NCBI GenBank assembly: GCA_003576845.1
Contig: QEVJ01000023.1
Location: 1 to 51,207 of the forward strand
DNA from: Planctomycetota bacterium
GTDB lineage: Bacteria > Planctomycetota > Planctomycetia > Pirellulales > PLA5
Length of the DNA stretch: 51,207 bases
Reading direction: 5' to 3'
In this document: one piece after another, positions 12,535 through 51,165 of the stretch
Layout of the letters: each line of letters starts with the position of its first letter
How positions within the stretch are numbered: position 1 is the stretch's first letter
Notes under the pieces: generated by a model
Database searches by the model: none
Seen by the model: only the letters and a program-made list of their open reading frames with translations
Told to the model about the DNA's origin: nothing
Translations under genes and position numbers: made by a program

Positions 12535-13764
12535 ATGAAAGATGTGCTGACGCTGATCCTTGCCGGTGGCAAGGGGACGCGGCTCGAACCGCTGACTCAG
12601 GATCGCAGCAAGCCCGCCGTCCCGTTCGCCGGCGCTTACCGGATCATCGACTTCACGCTGTCGAACTGCATCAACAGCAACCTCCGCCGCGTGCTCGTGT
12701 TGACGCAATACAAGGCCGCGAGTCTGGATCGGCACATCGACGTGGGTTGGAAGTTTCTGTACCGCGAACTCAACGAGTTCATCGACGTCGTGCCGCCGCA
12801 GCAGCGAATCGACGAGAACTGGTACTTGGGCACGGCCGATGCGGTCTACCAGAACATCTACATGATCGAACGGCATCAGCCGAAATACGTGCTGATCCTT
12901 TCGGGCGATCACGTTTACAAGATGGACTACCGCCCGCTGGTCGAGCAGCACAAGCGGACGAAGGCGGCCGCGACGCTGGCGTGCATTCCGGTGGAGTTGG
13001 AGCACAGCCGCGAGTTCGGGGTGATCGAGGTCGACGCCGATTGGCGGGTCAAGAAGTTCGTCGAGAAACCGGCCAAGACCGCCCCGATGCCGGACGATCC
13101 GAAGCGGTTTTTGGCGAATATGGGCGTGTACGTGTTCGACGCGCGGTTCTTGTACGAGTTGTTGTGCAACGACGCGAACAAGCCGGAGAGTTCCCACGAT
13201 TTCGGCAAGAACATCCTTCCCTCGATCATCGACAAGTTCCGCGTGCAGGCGTATCCCTTTCGCGATGCGGAGACGGGCCAGACGTGTTACTGGCGCGACG
13301 TAGGGACGATCGAGGCGTTCTACGAAGCGAACCTCGACATGGTCGCCGTCAAGCCGGAGTTGAACCTGTACGATCTGACGTGGCCGATTCATACGTACAT
13401 TCCACCGTATCCGCCGGCCAAAACGGTGTTCACAACGATGGAAGGGCCGGAGCGGCGGGTGGGCGAAGTGCTCGGCAGCGCGGTGTGCAGCGGGTCGGTG
13501 ATTTCCGGCGGGCGGGTGCGGCATTCGCTGCTGTCGTACAACGTCCGCGTCAATAGTTGGGCGGAGGTCGAGGACTCGATCCTGTTCGACGACGTGCAGA
13601 TCGGCCGCCATGCGAAGGTGCGGCGGGCGATCATCGACAAGCACGCCCGTATTCCGGAAGGGGCGCGCGTCGGCTACGACCCGGCGGAGGATATCGCCAA
13701 CGGGTACACGGTGACGGAAAGCGGCATCGTCGTCGTGCCGAAAGGGACGCCGGAGTTGAGTTAG
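12535..13764 (+). CDS. glgC: Glucose-1-phosphate adenylyltransferase (ADP-glucose pyrophosphorylase)
   Basis: This enzyme makes ADP-glucose, the donor for bacterial glycogen synthesis. The protein is 409 residues from the ATG at 12535, which has GGAG 8 bp upstream. The nucleotide-binding N-terminus LILAGGKGTRLEPLTQDRSK is followed by PAVPFAGAYRIIDFTLSNC and WYLGTADAVYQNIYMI. The motifs ILSGDHVYKMDY and TCYWRDVGTIEAFYEANLDM are characteristic of GlgC. The C-terminal left-handed beta-helix contains SGSVISGGRVRHSLLS. It is transcribed away from marR and the glgE operon. ADP-glucose can feed either a glycogen synthase, not present here, or a GlgM-type maltose-1-phosphate synthase, also not present, so the acceptor branch must be encoded elsewhere. 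The call is firm. Confidence 0.96.
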   Translation: MKDVLTLILAGGKGTRLEPLTQDRSKPAVPFAGAYRIIDFTLSNCINSNLRRVLVLTQYKAASLDRHIDVGWKFLYRELNEFIDVVPPQQRIDENWYLGTADAVYQNIYMIERHQPKYVLILSGDHVYKMDYRPLVEQHKRTKAAATLACIPVELEHSREFGVIEVDADWRVKKFVEKPAKTAPMPDDPKRFLANMGVYVFDARFLYELLCNDANKPESSHDFGKNILPSIIDKFRVQAYPFRDAETGQTCYWRDVGTIEAFYEANLDMVAVKPELNLYDLTWPIHTYIPPYPPAKTVFTTMEGPERRVGEVLGSAVCSGSVISGGRVRHSLLSYNVRVNSWAEVEDSILFDDVQIGRHAKVRRAIIDKHARIPEGARVGYDPAEDIANGYTVTESGIVVVPKGTPELS

Positions 13765-13866
13765 CCCGGCGAGCGGCTGGCGGAGGTTCGGAGGATGCTC
13801 GTGTTTGGCGGCGCGTTCGGCGGTTTCAACTCAGTTTGACGAAGAGCCTATCCGAAACCGGAACCC

Positions 13867-13935
13867 GTAGGAGGCGAATCCTCTCGCCGACCGGCCCGGT
13901 TAGCGATTCAATCGGCGAAGGGATTCGCCTCCTAC
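13867..13935. repeat. Palindromic element copy 2, between glgC and the next gene
   Basis: GTAGGAGGCGAATCCTCTCG at 13867 is mirrored by GGGATTCGCCTCCTAC ending at 13935. It lies between convergent genes and may also act as a bidirectional terminator. It matches the insert in malQ. Confidence 0.9.
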
Positions 13936-13952
13936 AATTCTAGGGTATGCTC

Positions 13953-16010
13953 TCAGCCAGAGAGGCCGACGTTGGGTTGTCGGGGTTTGGCGCGGATCGT
14001 TGGGCGGTTGGGGACCGGGCGGAGGCGTTTGGCTGGCTCGACGGGTTCGGGGGCAATGCCGTCACCGCCGCCGCCGGGCGGCAGTTCGATCGCGCCGGGG
14101 AGAAACTCGATCCCGCCGTCGTCGATATCGAAATCGAAATCCTCGATGCCGAAGTCCTCGAACTGTTGCTGCGGAATCGCCTCCTGATGGTGTATGCCCG
14201 CGCTCCTCACGCCGAAGAACATCATCGGCAACGCCTGCCACGCGCCGATGGCCATGGGGAGCGTCTGGTGCGTGGTGATTTCGAGGCCGTCCTTGGTTGG
14301 GGCAAGCGTGGTAATGCTCGGTTGGATATGCGGCAGGATTGCGCCGGCCGACGGGAAGGCCGACATGTCGATTTCCGCGCCTTCGCGCTGGATCGCGCCG
14401 CAGACGACGTTGGCGAGGACTTGCAGCACCGGGTACGCGATCTTCGCCATCTCGCGCGTGTCTTGATAGGCGACGACGGTCGGCGGGTTTGCACTTTTGA
14501 GCGCCGCGGCGACCTCGGGCACGTTGGCCGCGGACTTGAAGTCGCTCTTGCGGTTCAAGTAGTTCTTCACGTGGCCGGGGAAGAGCGAAACGATCAGTTC
14601 CTTATCCGTCACGCACCACGCGGGCGAGACGGGTGAATCGTCGCCGACGAAGTTGACGAAGTAGATCGTCTGGCCGTTGTGGTCGAAGTGCTTGACGGTG
14701 ACGTGGCGGGGAACGCGGCCGAACTCGTTGGGCTGGCCGGCGGTTTCGGCCATTTTTTGGGCGAATCCTTCGATCTTGGAGGACGCTTTGACGAGCGCCG
14801 AGCGGTCGCGGACGTTGGCGACGGCGGTGAGGCCGGTGACGAGCAGCCCGCCGTCGCTGGGGGCGTTGTAGATGCGCCACGTGTCGCCGATCGCTTGGAG
14901 CACGTCCTTGGACAGGTCGATGCCGAGCTCGCTCTTCATGTCTTCCATTTCCTGCTCGAACGCGGCCTGACCGCGCGGGTCGACGGAGCCGACGACCGTT
15001 TTAATCAACTCGAACGCCTGGTTCGCATCGAAGCGAGCGGCGAAGGCGAGCGTCGCGTCCTGCGGAATCGGGGCGAGGTCTTCGGCCGTGAGCGGCTTGC
15101 CGGCGACGAGCTTGAAGAGGCCCTCCGCCTGGCCGTCGATGGCGACGTGCGACCGCGTGACGCAGCCCTTATCGTCGAGGCCGGTGACGCTGGCAAGGTG
15201 CGAGACGTTGGCAAAGCCGAGCGCCTTGACGACCATTTGCACTTGCGGCGGGGCGCCGATTTTGGCGGGCAGTTCCGCGAGTTTCTTGGCGTTGATATAC
15301 GTCACGCTCGCGAGGCGATCGACCTTGTTCCGCTCGCGGACGGCGGTGAGCCACTTGGGGGTTTCGCCGCGGGCCCGCTTGACGATGTTTTCGACGGCGC
15401 CTTCGCCGATGCCGAGGATGAAGTATTTTCCTTTAAAGCCCCACAGGACTTGCGGAGCGCCCGGCGGAAGCGGCGGCTGCTTCCACTTCTGGCCGGCGAC
15501 TTCGACTTCGGAGATGTTGCCGGCGGCCTGCTCGAGGCGGGCGATCGAGGTCATCAGGGCCGCGGTGTCATCGCCCGTGCCGACGATGAGTCCGCCTTCG
15601 ACGGTCGGGCCGCCGGGACCGATGCCGACGTCACCCAAAAAAATCGCGGTCGGCTTGGTCAACAGGGCCTTAACGACCTTGGGCATTTCCGTGGCGATGA
15701 TCTTGTTCTGCTCGATGTCGCGGGCGTCTTTGGCGAGGGCCGTGGCGATGGCCTTTTCGACGGCGGCCGCGAACTTTTGGATTTCCGCTTCCGCGAGGAG
15801 TTGTTCCGTGTGGTTCTTGCTCGCCGGGTCGGGCTTGGCCATGCCGGCCCAGCAGAGATAGAGCGTGCAGTCTTCCGGCGCGACCTTGGCGAGAAGCGGA
15901 TCTTCGGGAGCGGGCGGGATGCCGAGGGGCAAGCCGGTTCCGCCGATGCCGAACAGCGCGACGATCACGAGTTCCCAGATACCGAGTCCGAACATGGTTG
16001 GCGCTGCCAC
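13953..16010 (-). CDS. Large secreted or membrane-anchored protein of unknown function
   Basis: I do not recognise this family. The protein is 685 residues from a GTG at 16010, chosen because AAGGAGG lies 7 bp upstream. An ATG at 15995 is an alternative. The N-terminus MFGLGIWELVIVALFGIGG is one hydrophobic segment resembling a TatA-type or signal anchor. A short motif DCTLYLCWAGMAKPDP follows, then a long alpha/beta body without obvious catalytic motifs. A proline- and acid-rich tail contains DFGIEDFDFDIDDGGIEF and is probably disordered. The GTG lies in the loop of a hairpin with 6-bp stem (GCTGCC/GGCAGC) that also follows the ribosome-binding site, so start choice or translation may be structure-dependent. 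The gene converges with glgC across the palindromic repeat. It is likely lineage-specific to planctomycetes. Confidence 0.8.
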   Translation of the reverse strand: MAAPTMFGLGIWELVIVALFGIGGTGLPLGIPPAPEDPLLAKVAPEDCTLYLCWAGMAKPDPASKNHTEQLLAEAEIQKFAAAVEKAIATALAKDARDIEQNKIIATEMPKVVKALLTKPTAIFLGDVGIGPGGPTVEGGLIVGTGDDTAALMTSIARLEQAAGNISEVEVAGQKWKQPPLPPGAPQVLWGFKGKYFILGIGEGAVENIVKRARGETPKWLTAVRERNKVDRLASVTYINAKKLAELPAKIGAPPQVQMVVKALGFANVSHLASVTGLDDKGCVTRSHVAIDGQAEGLFKLVAGKPLTAEDLAPIPQDATLAFAARFDANQAFELIKTVVGSVDPRGQAAFEQEMEDMKSELGIDLSKDVLQAIGDTWRIYNAPSDGGLLVTGLTAVANVRDRSALVKASSKIEGFAQKMAETAGQPNEFGRVPRHVTVKHFDHNGQTIYFVNFVGDDSPVSPAWCVTDKELIVSLFPGHVKNYLNRKSDFKSAANVPEVAAALKSANPPTVVAYQDTREMAKIAYPVLQVLANVVCGAIQREGAEIDMSAFPSAGAILPHIQPSITTLAPTKDGLEITTHQTLPMAIGAWQALPMMFFGVRSAGIHHQEAIPQQQFEDFGIEDFDFDIDDGGIEFLPGAIELPPGGGGDGIAPEPVEPAKRLRPVPNRPTIRAKPRQPNVGLSG

Positions 16011-42790: not shown

Positions 42791-44167
42791 TCAGCAGCGG
42801 CGATCCCGCTTGCGGATCGATGCACACGCCAGTGCGAACAGTCCTCCCGCGCATAACAGCGTGGCGCTTGCCGGCTCGGGCACCAGCGCGGCCTCGGCAC
42901 GAATGCGCAGATGGGCCACGCCGTCTTCGGCAAACGTCAGACCCGTGACAAACGGTGGATCGGCCAGGGGGTCGGGAACAACGTCGAGGTCGAGGCCGGA
43001 AAGCACAAACCACGATACGCCTTCCGGTACATACGCGTCGAAATCGAACACGACGCCTGCGGTGACAGGATACGTGTGCTCTCCGTTTTCGCCGAAGCGG
43101 ACCGCGAACTCGGTGTCGCCGCCCGGCAGGGCACTGGGAATAAGGAGTTCCGTGGCGCGATTGTGGGCGATGGTGTAGAGATAGGAAGCGGACCACGCCG
43201 GGTCGAAGAACAGCATTCCGTCTTCCCCCTTGCCAAAACCGGCCTCGGCGATGATGGGCGTGGAGAATTCGGCCGATGGCGCGGTGAGGAATGCACCTGA
43301 CACTTCCGCCGGGGGAACTCCCGGTTTGTCGTCGTCGTCGTCATCGTCGTCGTCACCGCCACCAGCGTCGTCGCTTTCTGGGTCAAGCGTGCCCGGGGTC
43401 ACGGCGGCAATCGGCCATTGCGGAGTCTTTCCCGGCAGGCCGCCGCCCGCTGGGCCCGCGACCCAAAGGTATGAAAAAACCAGGAAGTCGTGATTTTCCG
43501 CGTAAGCGGCGCCCAATTCAGCCGCAAAGGACGCATGCCCCTCGTACCCTGGCTCGCTGTAACGGATTCCTGATCCGGATCCGCTGCCGAAATACTGTTT
43601 GCCCGATCCAGGAATGTCAATCGAGAGAACCGTGTTGCCAGTTGATATGTAGCCGTACAGCAGCTTGAAGTCGGTACTTCCGGTGTTGTCATCGTAGTAG
43701 GCCGGCACCGCGATGCTTCCAAAAATGTTGGCCCCTGCGCTAAATCGCTGCCACGGGTCGTTGCTACCGGCGCCAACGTCAAGCGATGCGTTCATAAAGC
43801 CGATGCCAACAGGCGGCGACAAGGTCGAATACACACCCGCAGGAGGAAAAACATGTCCCCCTGACGCGTGAGCACTCGCGCCAGCTATCGCGGCACTCGA
43901 GCCGCCGTATATCCACTCGTCTACCGTAAACCCTTCTTCATCAACGTAGTGCCAGGCCGCGGAGGTGGAAGCATTGAACTCGCCCACGGCTTGGTCCAGA
44001 ATGATCGCCGCCGCCTGGCACCGCGGCGCGGGCGCTAGCCCAAGAAGCACGCCCCAAGCGGCCATCAGCACGAGTCGCTTTGCAGCGGCGAAATTCGTCC
44101 GCCTACGGTCACTGCGGATATTGATTTCGTTCTGGTTCAGGCCCGATCCCATTTGGCGCATCGTCAT
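42791..44167 (-). CDS. PEP-CTERM protein with poly-aspartate tract
   Basis: The protein is 458 residues from the ATG at 44167 (AGAGGA 5 bp upstream). It has a signal peptide (AAKRLVLMAAWGVLLGLAPA) and ends in VPEPASATLLCAGGLFALAC followed by a basic tail (RKRDRRC), a PEP-CTERM sorting signal. The body is glycine-rich and beta-strand-prone, with FMNASLDVGAGSNDPW and KLLYGYISTGNTVLSIDIPG. A run of nine aspartates (GGGDDDDDDDDDKPG) encoded by GTC/ATC triplets on the plus strand links two halves and might bind calcium. No enzymatic motif was recognised. It is the second PEP-CTERM protein in the window, supporting an exosortase system elsewhere in the genome. Confidence in the sorting signal is high. 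Confidence 0.88.
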   Translation of the reverse strand: MTMRQMGSGLNQNEINIRSDRRRTNFAAAKRLVLMAAWGVLLGLAPAPRCQAAAIILDQAVGEFNASTSAAWHYVDEEGFTVDEWIYGGSSAAIAGASAHASGGHVFPPAGVYSTLSPPVGIGFMNASLDVGAGSNDPWQRFSAGANIFGSIAVPAYYDDNTGSTDFKLLYGYISTGNTVLSIDIPGSGKQYFGSGSGSGIRYSEPGYEGHASFAAELGAAYAENHDFLVFSYLWVAGPAGGGLPGKTPQWPIAAVTPGTLDPESDDAGGGDDDDDDDDDKPGVPPAEVSGAFLTAPSAEFSTPIIAEAGFGKGEDGMLFFDPAWSASYLYTIAHNRATELLIPSALPGGDTEFAVRFGENGEHTYPVTAGVVFDFDAYVPEGVSWFVLSGLDLDVVPDPLADPPFVTGLTFAEDGVAHLRIRAEAALVPEPASATLLCAGGLFALACASIRKRDRRC

Positions 44168-45297
44168 TGTGTTCCTCTTCCGACCCGAGCGACTGCGAGG
44201 ATTACTGCCGGAATTGCGCGACATCGTCTGTCTCGTGCGAATGAGCCTGGCGATTTGCAAACTCGCCGGTGAAACGCCGTCGCCGAGCCGATAATGCGGT
44301 CCGTATCCCCTCATTAGCCTGCGGTCATGTTGCTGGAATGTTGCTGGAAAACGATGCGGCTGCCGCCGCGGGTGGACCGTGCTCAGCGTCGGACTCGCGC
44401 TTGACCGCCAGATGCCTGGCAGAGTTTCGCGCCGCACGCAGCACTCGCCGGATACGTCCGCGTTTGAGCCGCTGTGTCCCCTATTGAACCTTGGCCCGAA
44501 ACCGTTTCGAGCCGCGCCGCCAATTAGCGTAATCAAACGTGCCCTCAGTATCCAGTTCCTTTCCGTCGGCGGGCTGTGTCCAGCGAAAGCGCGGAGCAGG
44601 AGCCGCGTAGAATTGGCCCGCGAGGCGCGAGCACGTTCTGGTCGCTTGGGACATAATCCCGACGTCGTTCAACGTGGGACGAAAAGGATCGGCTGGTGGG
44701 CGGAGCCTACCGTACGTTCGCGATTTGCGGGGATGGCTGGGATTTTGTTGCTTGAAGGTGTGCCAATCGTTTGGTATGACGGTGGGGTGCGGAGATGGTG
44801 CGCCGCTGCGTGGAGTTGGTTGGTGCGGGGCGGCGGTTGGTTCCCGCGGATGCTGGTTGGGAATTTGCTTTTTTCGGTCGAAAAGAGTGGACGGTTGGAT
44901 TTTTTTGTTGACCGATTAGGACGCAGAGAAGTGCGGGGGTTTTTGAACGTTACCCCCTCGATTCCCCAGGAGTTTGTTTAATAACTCCCTCGCGTAGGCG
45001 GTGCGAAAGGCGGGGGTTTGGGGCGTGTGGGTGGCGTGGTGGTGCAAGATTTTTTTGGCGGGTGGGTTGTCGCGGCGCGGAGATCGGAGGCGGTCTTGGC
45101 GGGCGGGGGTGTTGAGGCGCGCAAAGGGTAGGTCAATCGCCGTCGCTTGTCAGGCCGGCGCGGGTTGGGGTTTGTGAGCATGGGGAGTCGATTGCCGCTT
45201 GGCCTGACCTACGAGAGTGACGGGGTTTAGCGGGGGTTTGCGGTGTAGGGAGCGCGTCGACGCGCCGCGGGTTTGGCGGCGGGCGAAGGAGTGTCCC
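44168..45297. other. Gene-poor stretch of about 1.1 kb
   Basis: No gene was recognised. The first 0.5 kb has normal composition; 44880-45110 is unusually rich in G and T on the plus strand (long T and G runs). A tandem ATGTTGCTGGA pair lies near 44327-44348. A short inverted repeat (GTAGGTCA 45128-45135 with TGACCTAC 45204-45211) lies close to the next gene. A 200-residue open frame at 44379-44981 has no good start or coding bias and is probably not a gene. Confidence 0.55.
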
Positions 45298-47178
45298 ATG
45301 CGTTTGCGAGTAGCCGAGCGCCGCAATTTATCCGTGAGTGTGGTCGTGACTGCGGTCGCGGTCTTTGCTCTGATTGCGCGCAGCGGATTGGCTCAGGCGC
45401 CCGCCGTGCCCAACCTTGTGGGTCTGGCGCCCGAAGTTGCCGCGGCAAAACTTTACACGGCCGCCGTGGAAGCGGAACTAGCCGGCAACGGTCCGGAGCG
45501 GAATCTCTTGCTGCGGCAGGCGCTGCGGTTCTCGCCGGATCTTGCTCCGGCGCGTTGGCGGCTGGGCGAGCTTCGCGACGGCGACGCTTGGCGGACGATC
45601 GACGACGCGGCGGCTCGCTGGGCAGTCGATCCGCGGCTTTTCGAGTATGAAACGCGGCGCAATGCCGCGACCGACGACCTGGCGAACAACCTCGCGCTCG
45701 CCCGGTGGGCGAAGAAGTCGGCCCTGGCGAACGAAGCAGCGGTCCATTGGCGACGGGTGCTGCGCGACGATCGGGGGAACGAGGAGGCGGCCCGATCGCT
45801 CGGCCTGCGAAAGCTCAACGGGCGGTACTATCCCCACGACGACTACAGGGTTGCGGCCGCCAATGTGCGCCGGGCGAAGCAAGCGGCGAAAGACTGGGCG
45901 CCGAAGCTGGCCGCGATTCGCCGGGATCTTGCCAGTCCGGTTATTGCCGAACGGAACCGGGGGCTGGCCGAGCTTCGTGCGATTACGGACCGCGATGCTC
46001 TGGCGACGCTGCAAGCCGAGTTTTCGATCGCCGACCCGCGCGAGCCGTTCCGGACGGTCGACGAAACGGCGGCGACGTTCGCCCGCGACAAGGCGTGGAA
46101 TCTCGAATACGTCGCGTTGCTCGCACGCTGGCCGGAAGTTGCGGCGACGAACGCGTTGGTTCGCGAGGCGGTGCTTTCGCCGGTCGAGGACGTGCGACTG
46201 GCCGCGGCCGACGTCCTTGCTGAGCGCCCGGCGCATCATTACGTGCCGCGTCTGCTCGCGGGACTGGTCGCGCCGATCGACGCCCGGATTACGCTGACGC
46301 TCGACGGCCGCGGGCGGGTGTTCTACCGCCGGACGTTTTTCCGCGAAGGTCCGCTGGCGGACGCGGTGGCGACTTACGACGACTTCTACCAGAACTTCGT
46401 CGTGGCGCCGGTTTTCTATGCGGATGGGTACGTCGAGGACGTCGTGTTCGAGGAGCCGGTTCCGCGGTCTCAGGTGAACGCGTTGGCGTCGAACGCAGTC
46501 GCCGTGCGTGCGGCCGTCAAGCGGTCGAACGCCCAAATCGAGCGGATGAACTCGCGAATTGTTGCGGCGGCGAGCCGTGCGACGGGCGTGGACCTTCCCG
46601 TCGACGCGGCGACGTGGTGGAGTTGGTGGCAAGAGTACAACGAGCTGTATGTACCGGCCGTCAAGCCGCTCTACGAGCGGACATACGCCAACTATTATGC
46701 GCCGTATCCCGTCGCGGGTTACTACTATCCGGTCTCGTGTTTTGCGGCCGGCACGACGGTGATGACCAAAGTCGGTGCGCGTCCGATCGAGACGATCCGC
46801 GTTGGCGACTCGGTGCTCGCGCAGAACGCCGAGACGGGCGAGTTGGCGTTCAAAGCGGTGCTCGACCGCACGACGCGGCCGGCGGCGCCGCTGTTGTCGA
46901 TCGGGCTCGGGCAGCAGACGATTCGGGTGACGCGGGGCCATCCGTTTTGGGTCGTGGGCGAGAACTGGCAGATGGCCAAGCACCTGCGACCGGGGGACCG
47001 GCTGCACACGGTCGCCGGTCCGATTCCGATTACCGAGATTACCGAGTCTGCGCCGGCCGCCACGTACAATCTCGTCGTCGACGATTGGCACAATTACTTC
47101 GTCTCCGACCGCCGCGTGCTCGTACACGACAATGCGCCGCAGCGGCCGACGGTGATGCGGCTGCCGGGCGTGCGGTGA
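45298..47178 (+). CDS. Secreted protein with C-terminal HINT (intein-like) domain
   Basis: The protein is 626 residues from the ATG at 45298, which has AAGGAG 6 bp upstream. A signal peptide (VVVTAVAVFALIARSGLAQA) precedes a helical, repeat-like N-terminal half (AAKLYTAAVEAELAGNG, LLLRQALRFSPDLAPARWRL) reminiscent of TPR/HEAT units. A beta-rich linker (NYYAPYPVAGYYYPVS) leads to a HINT domain of the pretoxin or hedgehog type. It starts at Cys481 (CFAAGTTVMTKVGARPIETI), has VGDSVLAQNAETGELAFKAV, the TRGHPFWV block with its conserved His, and ends VVDDWHNYFVSDRRVLVHDN at Asn612. Only 14 residues follow Asn612. Such domains can cleave themselves at the first cysteine. No toxin domain follows, unlike polymorphic toxins. 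Function is unknown. Confidence 0.85.
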   Translation: MRLRVAERRNLSVSVVVTAVAVFALIARSGLAQAPAVPNLVGLAPEVAAAKLYTAAVEAELAGNGPERNLLLRQALRFSPDLAPARWRLGELRDGDAWRTIDDAAARWAVDPRLFEYETRRNAATDDLANNLALARWAKKSALANEAAVHWRRVLRDDRGNEEAARSLGLRKLNGRYYPHDDYRVAAANVRRAKQAAKDWAPKLAAIRRDLASPVIAERNRGLAELRAITDRDALATLQAEFSIADPREPFRTVDETAATFARDKAWNLEYVALLARWPEVAATNALVREAVLSPVEDVRLAAADVLAERPAHHYVPRLLAGLVAPIDARITLTLDGRGRVFYRRTFFREGPLADAVATYDDFYQNFVVAPVFYADGYVEDVVFEEPVPRSQVNALASNAVAVRAAVKRSNAQIERMNSRIVAAASRATGVDLPVDAATWWSWWQEYNELYVPAVKPLYERTYANYYAPYPVAGYYYPVSCFAAGTTVMTKVGARPIETIRVGDSVLAQNAETGELAFKAVLDRTTRPAAPLLSIGLGQQTIRVTRGHPFWVVGENWQMAKHLRPGDRLHTVAGPIPITEITESAPAATYNLVVDDWHNYFVSDRRVLVHDNAPQRPTVMRLPGVR

Positions 47179-47276: not shown

Positions 47277-47420
47277 GGGGCGGCACGAGTGGCTTGTCCC
47301 GTGCGAAGCGCGGACGAACTCTCGATTGCGTTGAGTTGGACGGCGGTTACCACGGGTGGACAAGCCACCCGTGCCACCCTGTCGCCACCCGTGCCACCCT
47401 GTCGCCACCCGTGCCACCCA
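47277..47420. repeat. Degenerate inverted repeat with a 20-bp tandem unit
   Basis: GGGGCGGCACGAGTGGCTTG at 47277 is partly mirrored by GGACAAGCCACCCGTGCCAC ending near 47377. The right arm is extended by two copies of a 20-bp unit (CCTGTCGCCACCCGTGCCAC). It belongs to the same family as the repeat at 40566 and sits directly before the 2H phosphoesterase gene. Confidence 0.85.
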
Positions 47421-47427
47421 CCGCGCA

Positions 47428-48132
47428 ATGACTCGCGATAGCGTCCCGATGCCAGCAAGCTCTCTCAACCCGGCGACGTTGTTCCTCGGCCTGGAGCCAG
47501 ATGTGGCGCTTGCGCGGCTGGTTTTGGAATACAAGGAGCGGGTGCATGCGCTCGTGGGGCCGCAGACGTTCCTCGATCACGCGCCGCATTTGACGCTCTA
47601 TCTGGCGGCGTTCGGCGATGTTGCAGCGGTGCTCACGGCAGCGGAGGCGTTGGCTGCGTCGACCGCGCCGATTGCCGTTCGCGTCGAAGGGTGGCACGTG
47701 TTCTGGGCGGACCAGCTCACGGGTAGCCACACGCTCGTTCTCAAGCTCGACGCCGCGGCCGTCGTTTCGCTGCGCGCGTTGCAAGCCCGCGCGATCGGCA
47801 TTCTCGCTCCGCTGCGCGCCGCCGCAGAAAGCGCGTCGCGGTATGACGACCGCCGCGAGTACCTTTCGCCCAACGAACAAGCGTCGATCGACCGGACCGG
47901 GTTTCCGTACACGGGCGAGCATTGGCATCCGCACGTGACGATTGCCTCGATTGCGGCCGACGACTGGCCGGCGATCGCGCGCGAACTCCTGACCGAATCC
48001 CCGCGACTTGCGGCGATGGTGCCGACGCTCACTTGTTATCGGATCGACGACGAACAACCCGCGCCGTTTGGATCGTTCGCTTTGGGGCGAGTTGGCGCCG
48101 CGTCGAGAGATACCTCGCCCCTCGCCTTATAG
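47428..48132 (+). CDS. 2H phosphoesterase family protein (2'-5' RNA ligase-like)
   Basis: The protein is 234 residues. The two histidine motifs of the 2H superfamily are clear: HLTLY (His54, Thr56) in DHAPHLTLYLAAF, and HPHVTIA (His169, Thr171) in GEHWHPHVTIASI. They form the active site that opens 2',3'-cyclic phosphates or related bonds. Between them lies WHVFWADQLTGSHTLVLKL. The start at 47428 has no strong ribosome-binding site; an ATG at 47449 is an alternative. The next gene follows after 24 bp on the same strand, so it is likely the first gene of a four-gene operon. The substrate is unknown; proximity to nucleotidyltransferases suggests nucleotide or phosphodiester chemistry. Confidence 0.82.
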   Translation: MTRDSVPMPASSLNPATLFLGLEPDVALARLVLEYKERVHALVGPQTFLDHAPHLTLYLAAFGDVAAVLTAAEALAASTAPIAVRVEGWHVFWADQLTGSHTLVLKLDAAAVVSLRALQARAIGILAPLRAAAESASRYDDRREYLSPNEQASIDRTGFPYTGEHWHPHVTIASIAADDWPAIARELLTESPRLAAMVPTLTCYRIDDEQPAPFGSFALGRVGAASRDTSPLAL

Positions 48133-48156
48133 ACACTGCCCGTGCCTCGACGAGAA

Positions 48157-49725
48157 ATGAACTCCCGGACTTGCCGCATGGATGCTGCCTCGGTCAAGCA
48201 ACAGATCGTTTTCGCGCTTGGCCGCGCCGTCGAACCGCTCGCGTGGGTCGATTCGGCGACGATCGCCGGCAGCTTTCTCGCGGCGGCCGATCTCTCCGGC
48301 ATCAGCGACATCGACTTCGTGGTCGTGGTGGAGAACCTTTGCGGCCGGCGATTCGAGGAACTTCAGAAGTCGTGCGGCGAGGCGCTGGAACCGGTCGTGC
48401 GCGCCGCGGGCTATCGGCTGCGGATCAACCCGACGCTCGGCCCGCTGAAGTTCAACGACGCGGACACGGCGGTGCTGCACTTGATGGTGTACTCGCGAGC
48501 GGGACACGTCGAGCACGCCGTCAACAGCCCATTCACGTGCTTCGACTGGCAGCGTTCGCCGACATGGTTCAAGCGGCCGCTCGGCGACGTGTTTGCCGTG
48601 TTCGGTTTGGCGCCGCGGCATTTTCTTTCTGCGCGCCGGGGCGTCGGCGACTACCTTCGCGATTACCGCGCGGGCCGAGTGTCGTATCGCGAACTGGACT
48701 GCGACGACAGGCAGTGCCGCGAAGTCCGCCGCGAGCTACCGATGCAGCTTCGCGACCGCGTCGAGTTCGCGTGGCACATCGTGCGGTTCTTGATGCAGAA
48801 TTTTCTCAAGCTCGTTCGCCGCCGCAACGAAGCGCTCGAAGGCCGAACGCTCTGCCGGGCGTATCTCGCCGAGTTTGGCGAAGAGGCCGGGGAAGTCGAA
48901 CGACTGTTCGACGATCTTGCGGCCGCCAAGAAGTCGCAGGACTTTTCGGCCGCGCCGCCGCACATGGACGAGCGTCTCGAACGGTTCGTGCTCGGGTTCG
49001 AGCGGCAATTCTGCCGGGCGTTCGTCGACGAGGCGACGCGGCATGTCGTCTTTCGCCATGCGCCGACGGCTTGGAACCGCGGCGAACTGGAATCGCGGCG
49101 GTTCCTCGGCCGCACGGATTTGCCGACGGAGCCACTCGGGCACGATGCCGTCGCGCCGCTCGTCGAGCGACTCCGCGAGCATTCGTTCGCCGCCGCGTTC
49201 ACGTCGCCGCTGCTGCGGTGCCGGAAATCGCTGGCGACCGTTGCCCGGCACGTCGCGCTGCCGGCGGCGGAGATCGACGAACGTCTCGCGGAAATCGACT
49301 ACGGCGAGCTGGAAGGGATGGCGGTTGCGGAAGCGCGGCGGGACCACGCGCATCTTTTCGCAGCGTGGCAGCGCGGCGAAGACCCGGCGTTCCCGGGTGG
49401 AGAAAGCACGAGCGACGTCCGGCACCGCGTTCTCGCTTTTTTCGACGAACACTGGGACCGCCGCGGCCTTGCGAGTCGCGGCGACACACTTGTCTGTACG
49501 CACAACGTCCCAATCCGCGTCCTCATTGGCCACGCGCTTGGCGTGGCACCGGCGCTCTGGCACAAGCTGACGATCGATCACTTGCGGCCGTACAAGTTCC
49601 TCGATACCGAGCGCTACGGTCTCTTTGCGGACCTCGACGAAGCCACACACCGGGCCACGTTTGCCAACTTCGTGATGCAGTCAAGCGCCTCGCAGCGAGC
49701 GCATCCGGCTGCATTGGTCGCTTAG
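48157..49725 (+). CDS. Nucleotidyltransferase fused to histidine phosphatase
   Basis: This 522-residue protein has an unusual domain pairing. The N-terminal part is a polymerase-beta-type nucleotidyltransferase with TIAGSFLAAADLSGISDIDF (Gly38-Ser39 and the Asp51/Asp53 metal ligands), followed by a helical domain to about residue 290. The C-terminal part is a histidine phosphatase (phosphoglycerate mutase-like) with VVFRHAPTAWNRGE (His301), FTSPLLRCRKSL, IDYGELEGM and the second histidine in CTHNVPIRVLIGHALGV (His449). Both active sites look intact. The start may be 48142, 48157 or 48178. It is sandwiched between a 2H phosphoesterase and a sugar nucleotidyltransferase. A role in making or trimming a phosphorylated sugar or nucleotide-linked surface glycan is possible, but I cannot assign a reaction. 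Confidence 0.85.
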   Translation: MNSRTCRMDAASVKQQIVFALGRAVEPLAWVDSATIAGSFLAAADLSGISDIDFVVVVENLCGRRFEELQKSCGEALEPVVRAAGYRLRINPTLGPLKFNDADTAVLHLMVYSRAGHVEHAVNSPFTCFDWQRSPTWFKRPLGDVFAVFGLAPRHFLSARRGVGDYLRDYRAGRVSYRELDCDDRQCREVRRELPMQLRDRVEFAWHIVRFLMQNFLKLVRRRNEALEGRTLCRAYLAEFGEEAGEVERLFDDLAAAKKSQDFSAAPPHMDERLERFVLGFERQFCRAFVDEATRHVVFRHAPTAWNRGELESRRFLGRTDLPTEPLGHDAVAPLVERLREHSFAAAFTSPLLRCRKSLATVARHVALPAAEIDERLAEIDYGELEGMAVAEARRDHAHLFAAWQRGEDPAFPGGESTSDVRHRVLAFFDEHWDRRGLASRGDTLVCTHNVPIRVLIGHALGVAPALWHKLTIDHLRPYKFLDTERYGLFADLDEATHRATFANFVMQSSASQRAHPAALVA

Positions 49726-49782
49726 CCCAATTGGTTGCTCGCAGATCAACCGAATCCTGATTCCTGACCCCTGAACCCCGAC

Positions 49783-50571
49783 ATGCAACTCATCGTTCCC
49801 GCCGCCGGTCTCGGTCAGCGATTCGCCGATGCGGGCTACTCGCTGCCCAAGCCACTGGTCGAGGTTTCCGGCTTGCCGATGATCGTTCGCGTGGTTCGTG
49901 ACTTGCCCACGTGCGAGCGGATCGCGTTCGTGGTCCACGCCGAGCACGTCCGGCGGTTTGCCATCGACTCGGTTCTCCGCGCCCACTTTCCACAATGTCG
50001 CGTGGTGGTTGCGCCTGGCTTGACCGCGGGCCAGGCTTGTACGGTCCGTCTTGCCGCCGAGGCGATCGACCTCGACGACGACGTTCTCGTCGCGGCCTGC
50101 GATGCGACGCATGTTTACGACGCGGCGGACTTCGAGCGCGTTCGTAGCGACGCAACGGTCGACGCTTGCGTCTGGACGTATCGCGGCGAACCTCGCGTGC
50201 TCGCCAAGCCGCAGAGCTTCGGCTGGGTCGCCGCCGACGCCGCCGGCAACGTCGAGCGCGTCTCGTGCAAGTGGCCGATCTCGGACAACCTGCTCGCCGA
50301 CCGCGTGGCGAGCGGCTTTTTCTGGTTCCGCTCCGCCCGACGCATGATGGGGGCCATCGACGAGCTCGTTGCGGACGATGAGCGCGTAAGCAACGAGTTC
50401 TATCTCGACGTCGTTCCGAACCGTTTCATCGCCGCGGGCCGCCGCGTGGTCGCCTTCGACGTGGCCAAGTACATCGGCTGGGGCACGCCCGAAGACTTGC
50501 AAGACTATCGGCGTTGGGAGCGTTATTTCGCCCAACTTGCACGAGCCCAAGTCCACCGGAAAGCATCGTAA
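49783..50571 (+). CDS. Sugar nucleotidyltransferase (NTP_transferase fold)
   Basis: The protein is 262 residues and shows the nucleotide-binding start MQLIVPAAGLGQRFADAGYS followed by LPKPLVEVSGLPMI, as in glucose-1-phosphate thymidylyl/uridylyl-type enzymes. It further contains AGQACTVRLAAEAIDLDDDV, VAACDATHVYD (the metal-binding Asp) and YIGWGTPEDLQDYRRWERYF. It should activate a sugar-1-phosphate with a nucleoside triphosphate. The upstream gap of 57 bp contains a short C-rich repeat (CCTGATTCCTGACCCCTGA). The gene is in line with the NTase-phosphatase fusion and the GtrA-like gene. The identity of the sugar is not readable. Confidence 0.88.
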   Translation: MQLIVPAAGLGQRFADAGYSLPKPLVEVSGLPMIVRVVRDLPTCERIAFVVHAEHVRRFAIDSVLRAHFPQCRVVVAPGLTAGQACTVRLAAEAIDLDDDVLVAACDATHVYDAADFERVRSDATVDACVWTYRGEPRVLAKPQSFGWVAADAAGNVERVSCKWPISDNLLADRVASGFFWFRSARRMMGAIDELVADDERVSNEFYLDVVPNRFIAAGRRVVAFDVAKYIGWGTPEDLQDYRRWERYFAQLARAQVHRKAS

Positions 50572-50652
50572 CGTAATTCGCAGCGTGGGCTGTGGCAGCC
50601 GACACCTGAGAGCGGAACAACCATAACACCCAAAGGCGCCTGCTTCTTGATA

Positions 50653-51165
50653 ATGGCCTCCCCGCAAACACTAAGACGAAGCTCCGACGGCGACGACGCC
50701 GCGATCACCCCGCCGGCGTGGAGCGAGCGCCGCGAGACGCGCAAGCAGCTTCTGCGGTTCCTCGTCGTCGGCAGCATGAGCGTGGCCGTCGATTTCGCCG
50801 TCTATCGCGTGCTGGCCGTCGCGATGCCGCCCGACGTCGCCAAGGGCGTATCGTATCTGGCGGGCGTGGTCGTAGGGTTTTTCGGAAACAAGTGGTGGAC
50901 GTTCGAGTCGTCGCGGCGTTCGGCCGCGGAGCCGCTTGTCTATCTCGCCCTCTACGCCGTGACGCTTGGCGTCAACGTGGCGTGCAATCGCGCCGCGCTT
51001 GCCGTGCTCCCTGCGCTCGCCGTTGTGAGCAGTAATGGCACCGGTCTCGCGTTCCTCTTCGCCACGGGCGTGACGACGATTCTCAACTTCCTCGGAATGA
51101 AGAAGATCACGTTCCGCCGCGGCATCGCCGAGCGCCGCGCAATCGAAGTCCGCAAAGCCGCCTGA
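50653..51165 (+). CDS. GtrA-family membrane protein
   Basis: The protein is 170 residues and has four predicted membrane helices with the GtrA signature: QLLRFLVVGSMSVAVDFAVY, GVSYLAGVVVGFFGNKWWTF, LVYLALYAVTLGVNVACNRA, and TGLAFLFATGVTTILNFLGM. Members help move lipid-linked sugars or related glycans across membranes. The ATG at 50653 is preceded by a short AT-rich leader and no strong ribosome-binding site. It lies 81 bp after the sugar nucleotidyltransferase gene and probably belongs to the same operon, supporting a surface-glycan role for the cluster. The window ends 42 bp after its stop. Confidence 0.88.
   Translation: MASPQTLRRSSDGDDAAITPPAWSERRETRKQLLRFLVVGSMSVAVDFAVYRVLAVAMPPDVAKGVSYLAGVVVGFFGNKWWTFESSRRSAAEPLVYLALYAVTLGVNVACNRAALAVLPALAVVSSNGTGLAFLFATGVTTILNFLGMKKITFRRGIAERRAIEVRKAA

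Follow-up and report, generated by a model that had tools for sequence, protein, structure and literature searches.

Four genes at the end of a planctomycete contig are half of a conserved cassette of seven or eight genes that is found in distant bacteria and archaea. The window, i.e., the whole stretch of 51,207 nucleotides analyzed here, is the complete contig C201 of a genome with a size of 7.05 Mb. The cassette consists of a GtrA protein fused to ribulose-phosphate 3-epimerase (GtrA–RPE), an AraD-type epimerase, a fusion of a nucleotidyltransferase (NTase) with a histidine phosphatase (NTase–phosphatase), a 2H phosphoesterase, a sugar nucleotidyltransferase, a GtrA protein, a GDPD-fold phosphodiesterase, and a GT2 protein, and it often adjoins a large polytopic membrane protein. 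It is real and conserved, with recognizable folds and kept active sites, and the reading that it makes a surface sugar is supported. On this reading, eight widely annotated, unconnected proteins ("histidine phosphatase," "2'-5' RNA ligase," "GtrA," "ribulose-phosphate 3-epimerase," and others) would be tied into one pathway, the hosts of which are ocean bacteria (SAR11 and Actinomarina), freshwater Planctomycetes, and DPANN archaea.

The four ORFs lie head-to-tail on the plus strand at positions 47449–51165, and 42 bases remain to the contig end (51207). They encode a 2H phosphoesterase (47449–48132), a fusion protein with an N-terminal polymerase-beta-type NTase plus helical region (48178–49029) and a C-terminal branch 1 histidine phosphatase (49030–49725), a sugar or polyol-phosphate nucleotidyltransferase of the NTP_transf_3/NTP_transferase fold (49783–50571), and a GtrA-family membrane protein (50653–51165), which is a probable lipid-linked sugar flippase. 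The start codons are uncertain; the 2H gene begins at 47449 or at an alternative ATG at 47428, the fusion (in an ORF open from 48142) probably at 48178, and the GtrA gene probably at 50653. The gap between the 2H gene and the fusion is 9 bp, or 45 bp with the later fusion start, followed by gaps of 57 bp after the fusion and approximately 75–81 bp before the GtrA gene. Pfam and NCBIfam gave names to three of the ORFs and to the phosphatase half of the fusion ORF. Relatives with 70, 50, and 47% identity along their full length demonstrate that the ORFs are real. The preliminary description of four genes in line on one strand with short gaps, and of their domains, was therefore correct, but the set was incomplete: the two epimerases, the GDPD-fold enzyme, and the GT2 protein of the cassette are off the contig or elsewhere in the genome.

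The 527-residue fusion ORF gave a confident structural model (pLDDT 92). Its C-terminal half is a histidine phosphatase of the branch 1 superfamily: His_Phos_1 (PF00300) matched residues 303–480 at 3.6e-36, residues 286–487 of the model matched 4ij6_B in a fold search (Z 21.8, rmsd 2.3, 191 aligned), and Arg293, His294, Thr297, Arg347, Glu372, and His442, corresponding to the RH...T motif, the second Arg, the catalytic Glu, and the second His, are invariant in 30 sequences. Stand-alone histidine phosphatases, such as phosphoserine phosphatase, PhoE, and the mycobacterial glucosyl-3-phosphoglycerate phosphatase, have the same fold and catalytic residues, but they lack the nucleotidyltransferase fusion of the cassette protein. 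No Pfam model matched the NTase half of the window protein; NTP_transf_2 was matched by 25 of the 30 full-length relatives in the alignment. The GS followed by DxD of polymerase-beta-type nucleotidyltransferases (NTP_transf_2) is present and kept, with Gly31, Asp44, and Asp46 in all 30 sequences and Ser32 in 29 of them (S/T). In the model, the strand of residues 97–106 has no conserved Asp or Glu, and His101 is invariant there. By position, His101 appears to sit where the third catalytic acid would be expected, which is unusual, and classical NTase chemistry is thus not assured. Profile comparison of the NTase half with solved structures gave nothing convincing (best E 0.089), and in the fold search with the whole fusion model the matches listed were taken up by the phosphatase half. 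A PF01909 search of the host genome likewise failed to detect the NTase of the fusion. Apart from this third acid position, the core active-site residues of both halves are kept in 30 of 30 sequences; the loss of such residues from one half in all relatives, which would have refuted the preliminary description, was not seen. The two halves form one ORF in every complete relative except that of Micrarchaeota, where they are adjacent ORFs. The earlier prediction that the two halves share a substrate gains support from this constant co-occurrence and from larger fusions that add GtrA–RPE or 2H.

The other window enzymes also keep the residues of their families. The 2H protein matched 2_5_RNA_ligase2 (PF13563) at 2.5e-13 and DUF1045 at 1.5e-7, and both HxT/S motifs of the 2H phosphoesterase superfamily (His47-x-Thr49 and His162-x-Thr164) are kept (T/S) in 26 sequences. 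The sugar nucleotidyltransferase was assigned by Pfam (NTP_transf_3, 6.6e-11), NCBIfam, and its kept residues, of which Gly9, Gly11, Arg13, Lys23, Gln84, Asp107, and Asp209 are invariant in 27 sequences. GtrA_DPMS_TM (PF04138) matched the GtrA protein at 4.9e-18.

A genome_contigs scan with the NTase half found 30 loci, in Planctomycetes, Sumerlaeia, Cytophagales and other Bacteroidota, Neomarinimicrobiota, Verrucomicrobia, Gemmatimonadetes, SAR11 and other alphaproteobacteria, Actinomarina, and the DPANN archaea Woesearchaeota, Micrarchaeota, and Pacearchaeota. Because the scan relied on two NTase motifs only, the neighborhoods were not selected for. Among 39 genomes (the host and related ones), full-length relatives came from the congener G001 and from members of two further families of the order. 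In profile searches, the partners found at 37 NTase–phosphatase loci were GtrA–RPE (34), the NTP transferase (34), 2H (34), the GDPD-fold protein (31), GT2 (29), and AraD (29), most of them encoded on one strand; in some cases a partner is missing because the contig ends (e.g., L021, L029, L044, and L014). The common order is GtrA–RPE, NTase–phosphatase, 2H, NTP transferase, (GtrA), GT2, and GDPD, with AraD at either end. The gene-neighborhood and domain-architecture search called for in the preliminary description thus gave a nearly constant context across the 37 loci, not unrelated neighborhoods. AraD was missing near L033, L035, L039, and L043; by phylum, the gene is lacking around the cassette, despite long flanks, in the two Verrucomicrobia loci, Micrarchaeota, and Gemmatimonadetes, so the L-ribulose branch may be optional. 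Further fusions join the same partners: GtrA–RPE–NTase–phosphatase is a single ORF in L047 and L029, L035 has a GtrA–RPE–NTase fusion with a separate phosphatase adjoining, and 2H is fused to either end of NTase–phosphatase in L021, L022, L034, L042, and L045. Two single-contig genomes (G329 and G346) have the full set of GtrA–RPE, AraD, 2H, NTase–phosphatase, NTP transferase, GtrA, GDPD-fold protein, and GT2; AZOBR_p60025-type membrane proteins flank this set at each end.

Within the order, the NTase was found in 12 of 296 genomes from seven genera, and the GtrA–RPE fusion (E ≤ 1e-50) in exactly those 12; the genomes are partly related, and they represent fewer than 12 independent events. Only 3 of 246 genomes of the phylum have the NTase, which indicates that the cassette is patchy. 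The tree of the fusion separates a planctomycete/Sumerlaeia/DPANN clade from a clade of other bacteria (100/100), and since the phyla mostly form their own groups, the gene association looks old and not the product of recent spread. The relatives in other phyla rule out a local oddity of one metagenome-assembled genome. A viral origin was also rejected: no relative of the NTase half was present in the viral contigs searched, and, among the matches listed, those to phages and plasmids cover the phosphatase part only.

In the host genome, GtrA–RPE, AraD, and GT2 are on contig C248, apart from the window half. On C248, GT2 is followed by an unrelated gene on the opposite strand, and the window half comes after a Hint-domain gene. 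GT2 is directly upstream of 2H at the congener locus L014. Either the host cassette has apparently been split, with retention of both halves, or this part of the assembly contains an error. No GDPD-fold gene was found in a search of the host genome; in the congener G001, it is the next gene after GtrA, and the host copy is expected just past the contig end. Further features were observed in the window. The Hint-domain gene just 5' of the cassette half (45217–47178) encodes a protein of 653 residues with a C-terminal pretoxin-type Hint domain (PF07591, 4e-21). Immediately 5' of the 2H gene, at 47364–47419, a tandem repeat has 2.8 copies of a 20-base unit, GCCACCCGTGCCACCCTGTC, and the genome contains 16 copies of its 15-base core but none of the reversed control; the repeat sits near the point where the host cassette parts from its other half. 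At 42791–44536 on the minus strand, a protein with a PEP-CTERM-like sorting signal at its end was found (weak, below the cut-offs).

The partner enzymes outside the window were examined in the same manner. GtrA–RPE matched PF00834 at 3.5e-22, and the metal-binding and catalytic His and Asp residues of the RPE TIM barrel (His175, Asp177, His210, and Asp317) are invariant in 18 proteins. In the AraD-type enzyme, Asp77, His96, His98, Asp121, His159, and Tyr213 are invariant in 22 sequences. We take these to be the residues shared with Escherichia coli AraD, and they would supply the metal-binding His triad and the Asp and Tyr of that family. Both AraD-type members scanned scored above the cut-off of NCBIfam NF005123, an l-ribulose-5-phosphate 4-epimerase subfamily (258.7 and 251.5 versus 251). 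The GDPD-fold protein had no Pfam match at the sequence level. Its model (pLDDT 96) resembled glycerophosphodiesterases (Z up to 18.0, rmsd 2.3, 189 aligned), and its HR, ExDxR, H, K, and E are invariant; the predicted TIM barrel with HR, ExD, and His points to the GDPD superfamily. GT2 resembles ArnC and other polyprenyl-phosphate transferases, with scores below their NCBIfam cut-offs. PMT_2 or GT87 proteins were found near other cassette loci. The flanking membrane proteins belong to several families; some match PMT_2, GT87, or NF046093, and most match no Pfam or NCBIfam model.

Here, we propose that the cassette uses a pentose phosphate to build a lipid-linked sugar, which it exports, a reading to which we give an even chance as a class of pathway, not for its single steps. 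RPE and AraD-type enzymes interconvert d-ribulose-, d-xylulose-, and l-ribulose-5-phosphate, and the membrane-tethered RPE and the AraD-type enzyme of the cassette would do the same. The fused NTase may then transfer a nucleotidyl group onto a hydroxyl of the ketopentose phosphate, and the phosphatase half would remove the original phosphate. The GDPD-fold and 2H enzymes would cut the phosphodiester, probably via a cyclic phosphate, so that the sugar ends up phosphorylated at a different position, and the sugar nucleotidyltransferase would convert the newly phosphorylated sugar to an NDP-sugar. GT2 proteins of the ArnC/DPM1 kind and GtrA make and flip polyprenyl-phosphate sugars, which GT-C enzymes use outside. 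Accordingly placed in the scheme, the GT2 would transfer the sugar from the NDP-sugar to polyprenyl phosphate, GtrA would flip the lipid-linked sugar across the membrane, and an extracytoplasmic GT-C-type enzyme would attach it to a surface glycan. Because the flanking membrane proteins are of different families, mostly without a family match, it is their size and topology that suggest this last step. The proposed step order employs every conserved enzyme. Pentose-phosphate input, a lipid-linked donor, and flipping are suggested by knowledge of the families and by the context, and we put forward more tentatively the sequence of the phosphate reactions and the nature of the product, which would be a ketopentose or a ketopentose-derived pentose. 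A bolder form of the proposal, which we regard as doubtful, is an undescribed, kinase- and mutase-free activation of ketopentoses common to bacteria and archaea. There, the 5-phosphate sugar would be nucleotidylated, the fused phosphatase would take off the 5-phosphate, and the GDPD and 2H enzymes would open the diester to leave a phosphate at a new carbon, the route leading through an NDP-ketopentose to a polyprenyl-phosphate-ketopentose. Known bacterial glycans seldom contain ketopentoses, which counts against the pentose-phosphate reading. A ketopentose, xylulofuranose, occurs in the N-glycans of chloroviruses (PMC9614988).

The phosphate chemistry can also be read in terms of CDP-polyols. 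If the sugar nucleotidyltransferase activated the 5-phosphate of a pentulose or pentitol, a phosphopentitol or phosphopentulose, and not a glycosyl group, would be added to a surface polymer, with the phosphatase, 2H, and GDPD enzymes trimming or recycling phosphodiesters. Pentulose 5-phosphates as inputs (by family), a nucleotidyltransferase fold common to IspD-type enzymes acting on polyol phosphates, and several phosphodiesterases in the cassette all agree with such a route. It is nevertheless unlikely, since neither a reductase nor a CDP-polyol phosphotransferase is among the conserved cassette genes, and GT2 and GtrA point to a polyprenyl-phosphate glycosyl donor. CDP-ribitol and CDP-arabinitol synthesis by TarI-like cytidylyltransferases resembles the cassette in having a nucleotidyltransferase that acts on a polyol phosphate derived from a pentose 5-phosphate, but it uses a reductase and phosphotransferases, not GT2/GtrA, NTase–phosphatase, or 2H. 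The constant partners of the fusion (pentose-phosphate epimerases, sugar nucleotidyltransferase, GT2, and GtrA) and the lack of recurring RNA-processing or effector genes at the loci make it very improbable that the NTase adds a nucleotide mark to a protein, RNA, or lipid and that the phosphatase, 2H, and GDPD enzymes remove it in a regulatory or repair cycle. That idea draws on the frequent occurrence of 2H and polymerase-beta-type NTases in RNA repair and conflict systems and on weak NCBIfam matches of the NTase half to CBASS cyclases (best 0.0038). The preliminary description had left a choice between building and moving a surface sugar and removing a nucleotide modification; the wider locus, which contains GtrA and a GT2 resembling ArnC and has GT-C-like membrane proteins and polysaccharide genes close by, agrees with the former, and the latter found no support.

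Among described systems, Gtr-type glycosylation and the three-component pentofuranose systems come closest. As in GtrA/GtrB/Gtr(GT-C) glycosylation, the cassette has a GT2 resembling polyprenyl-phosphate glycosyltransferases and a flippase-like GtrA, with a GT-C-like membrane protein at many loci; it differs in the fusion of GtrA to RPE and in having its own precursor enzymes (AraD-type, NTase–phosphatase, 2H, GDPD-fold, and sugar nucleotidyltransferase). With the GT136 pentofuranose systems (PMC11127046) and mycobacterial decaprenyl-phosphate-arabinose, it would share a pentose origin, a lipid-linked donor, a flippase, an extracytoplasmic GT-C enzyme, and auxiliary epimerases. The cassette might itself be such a system, making a polyprenyl-phosphate pentofuranose, with the upstream genes merely tuning the pentose supply. 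Known systems do make lipid-linked pentofuranoses with a flippase, a GT-C enzyme, and epimerases (PMC11127046), and GtrA and GT-C-like proteins accompany pentose-phosphate enzymes here. We consider this quite improbable, because the known systems start from PRPP and polyprenyl phosphoribose synthase, whereas a sugar nucleotidyltransferase and GT2 are conserved here instead. The cassette overall combines epimerases for pentulose phosphates with two nucleotidyltransferases and phosphoesterases of three types, and polyprenyl phosphoribose synthase was not among its recurring genes.

In a literature search covering sources other than subscription journals and preprints, no report paired GtrA with ribulose-phosphate or l-ribulose-5-phosphate 4-epimerase. 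The cassette is apparently undescribed, a negative search being weak evidence of novelty. If the proposed pathway is true, it predicts a surface sugar derived from a pentose or ketopentose by a route without description in the literature searched, and its protein set is small enough for reconstitution. Homologs of TylF-like methyltransferases were observed in or near six cassettes (L047:8258–8929, L045:7929–8756, L015, L028, L034, and L038), and they could modify the cassette product by methylation. Two paralogous AZOBR_p60025-type membrane proteins lie one on either side of the complete planctomycete cassette (L078:4313–6187 and 13292–15094; L016:4033–5871 and 12971–14773).
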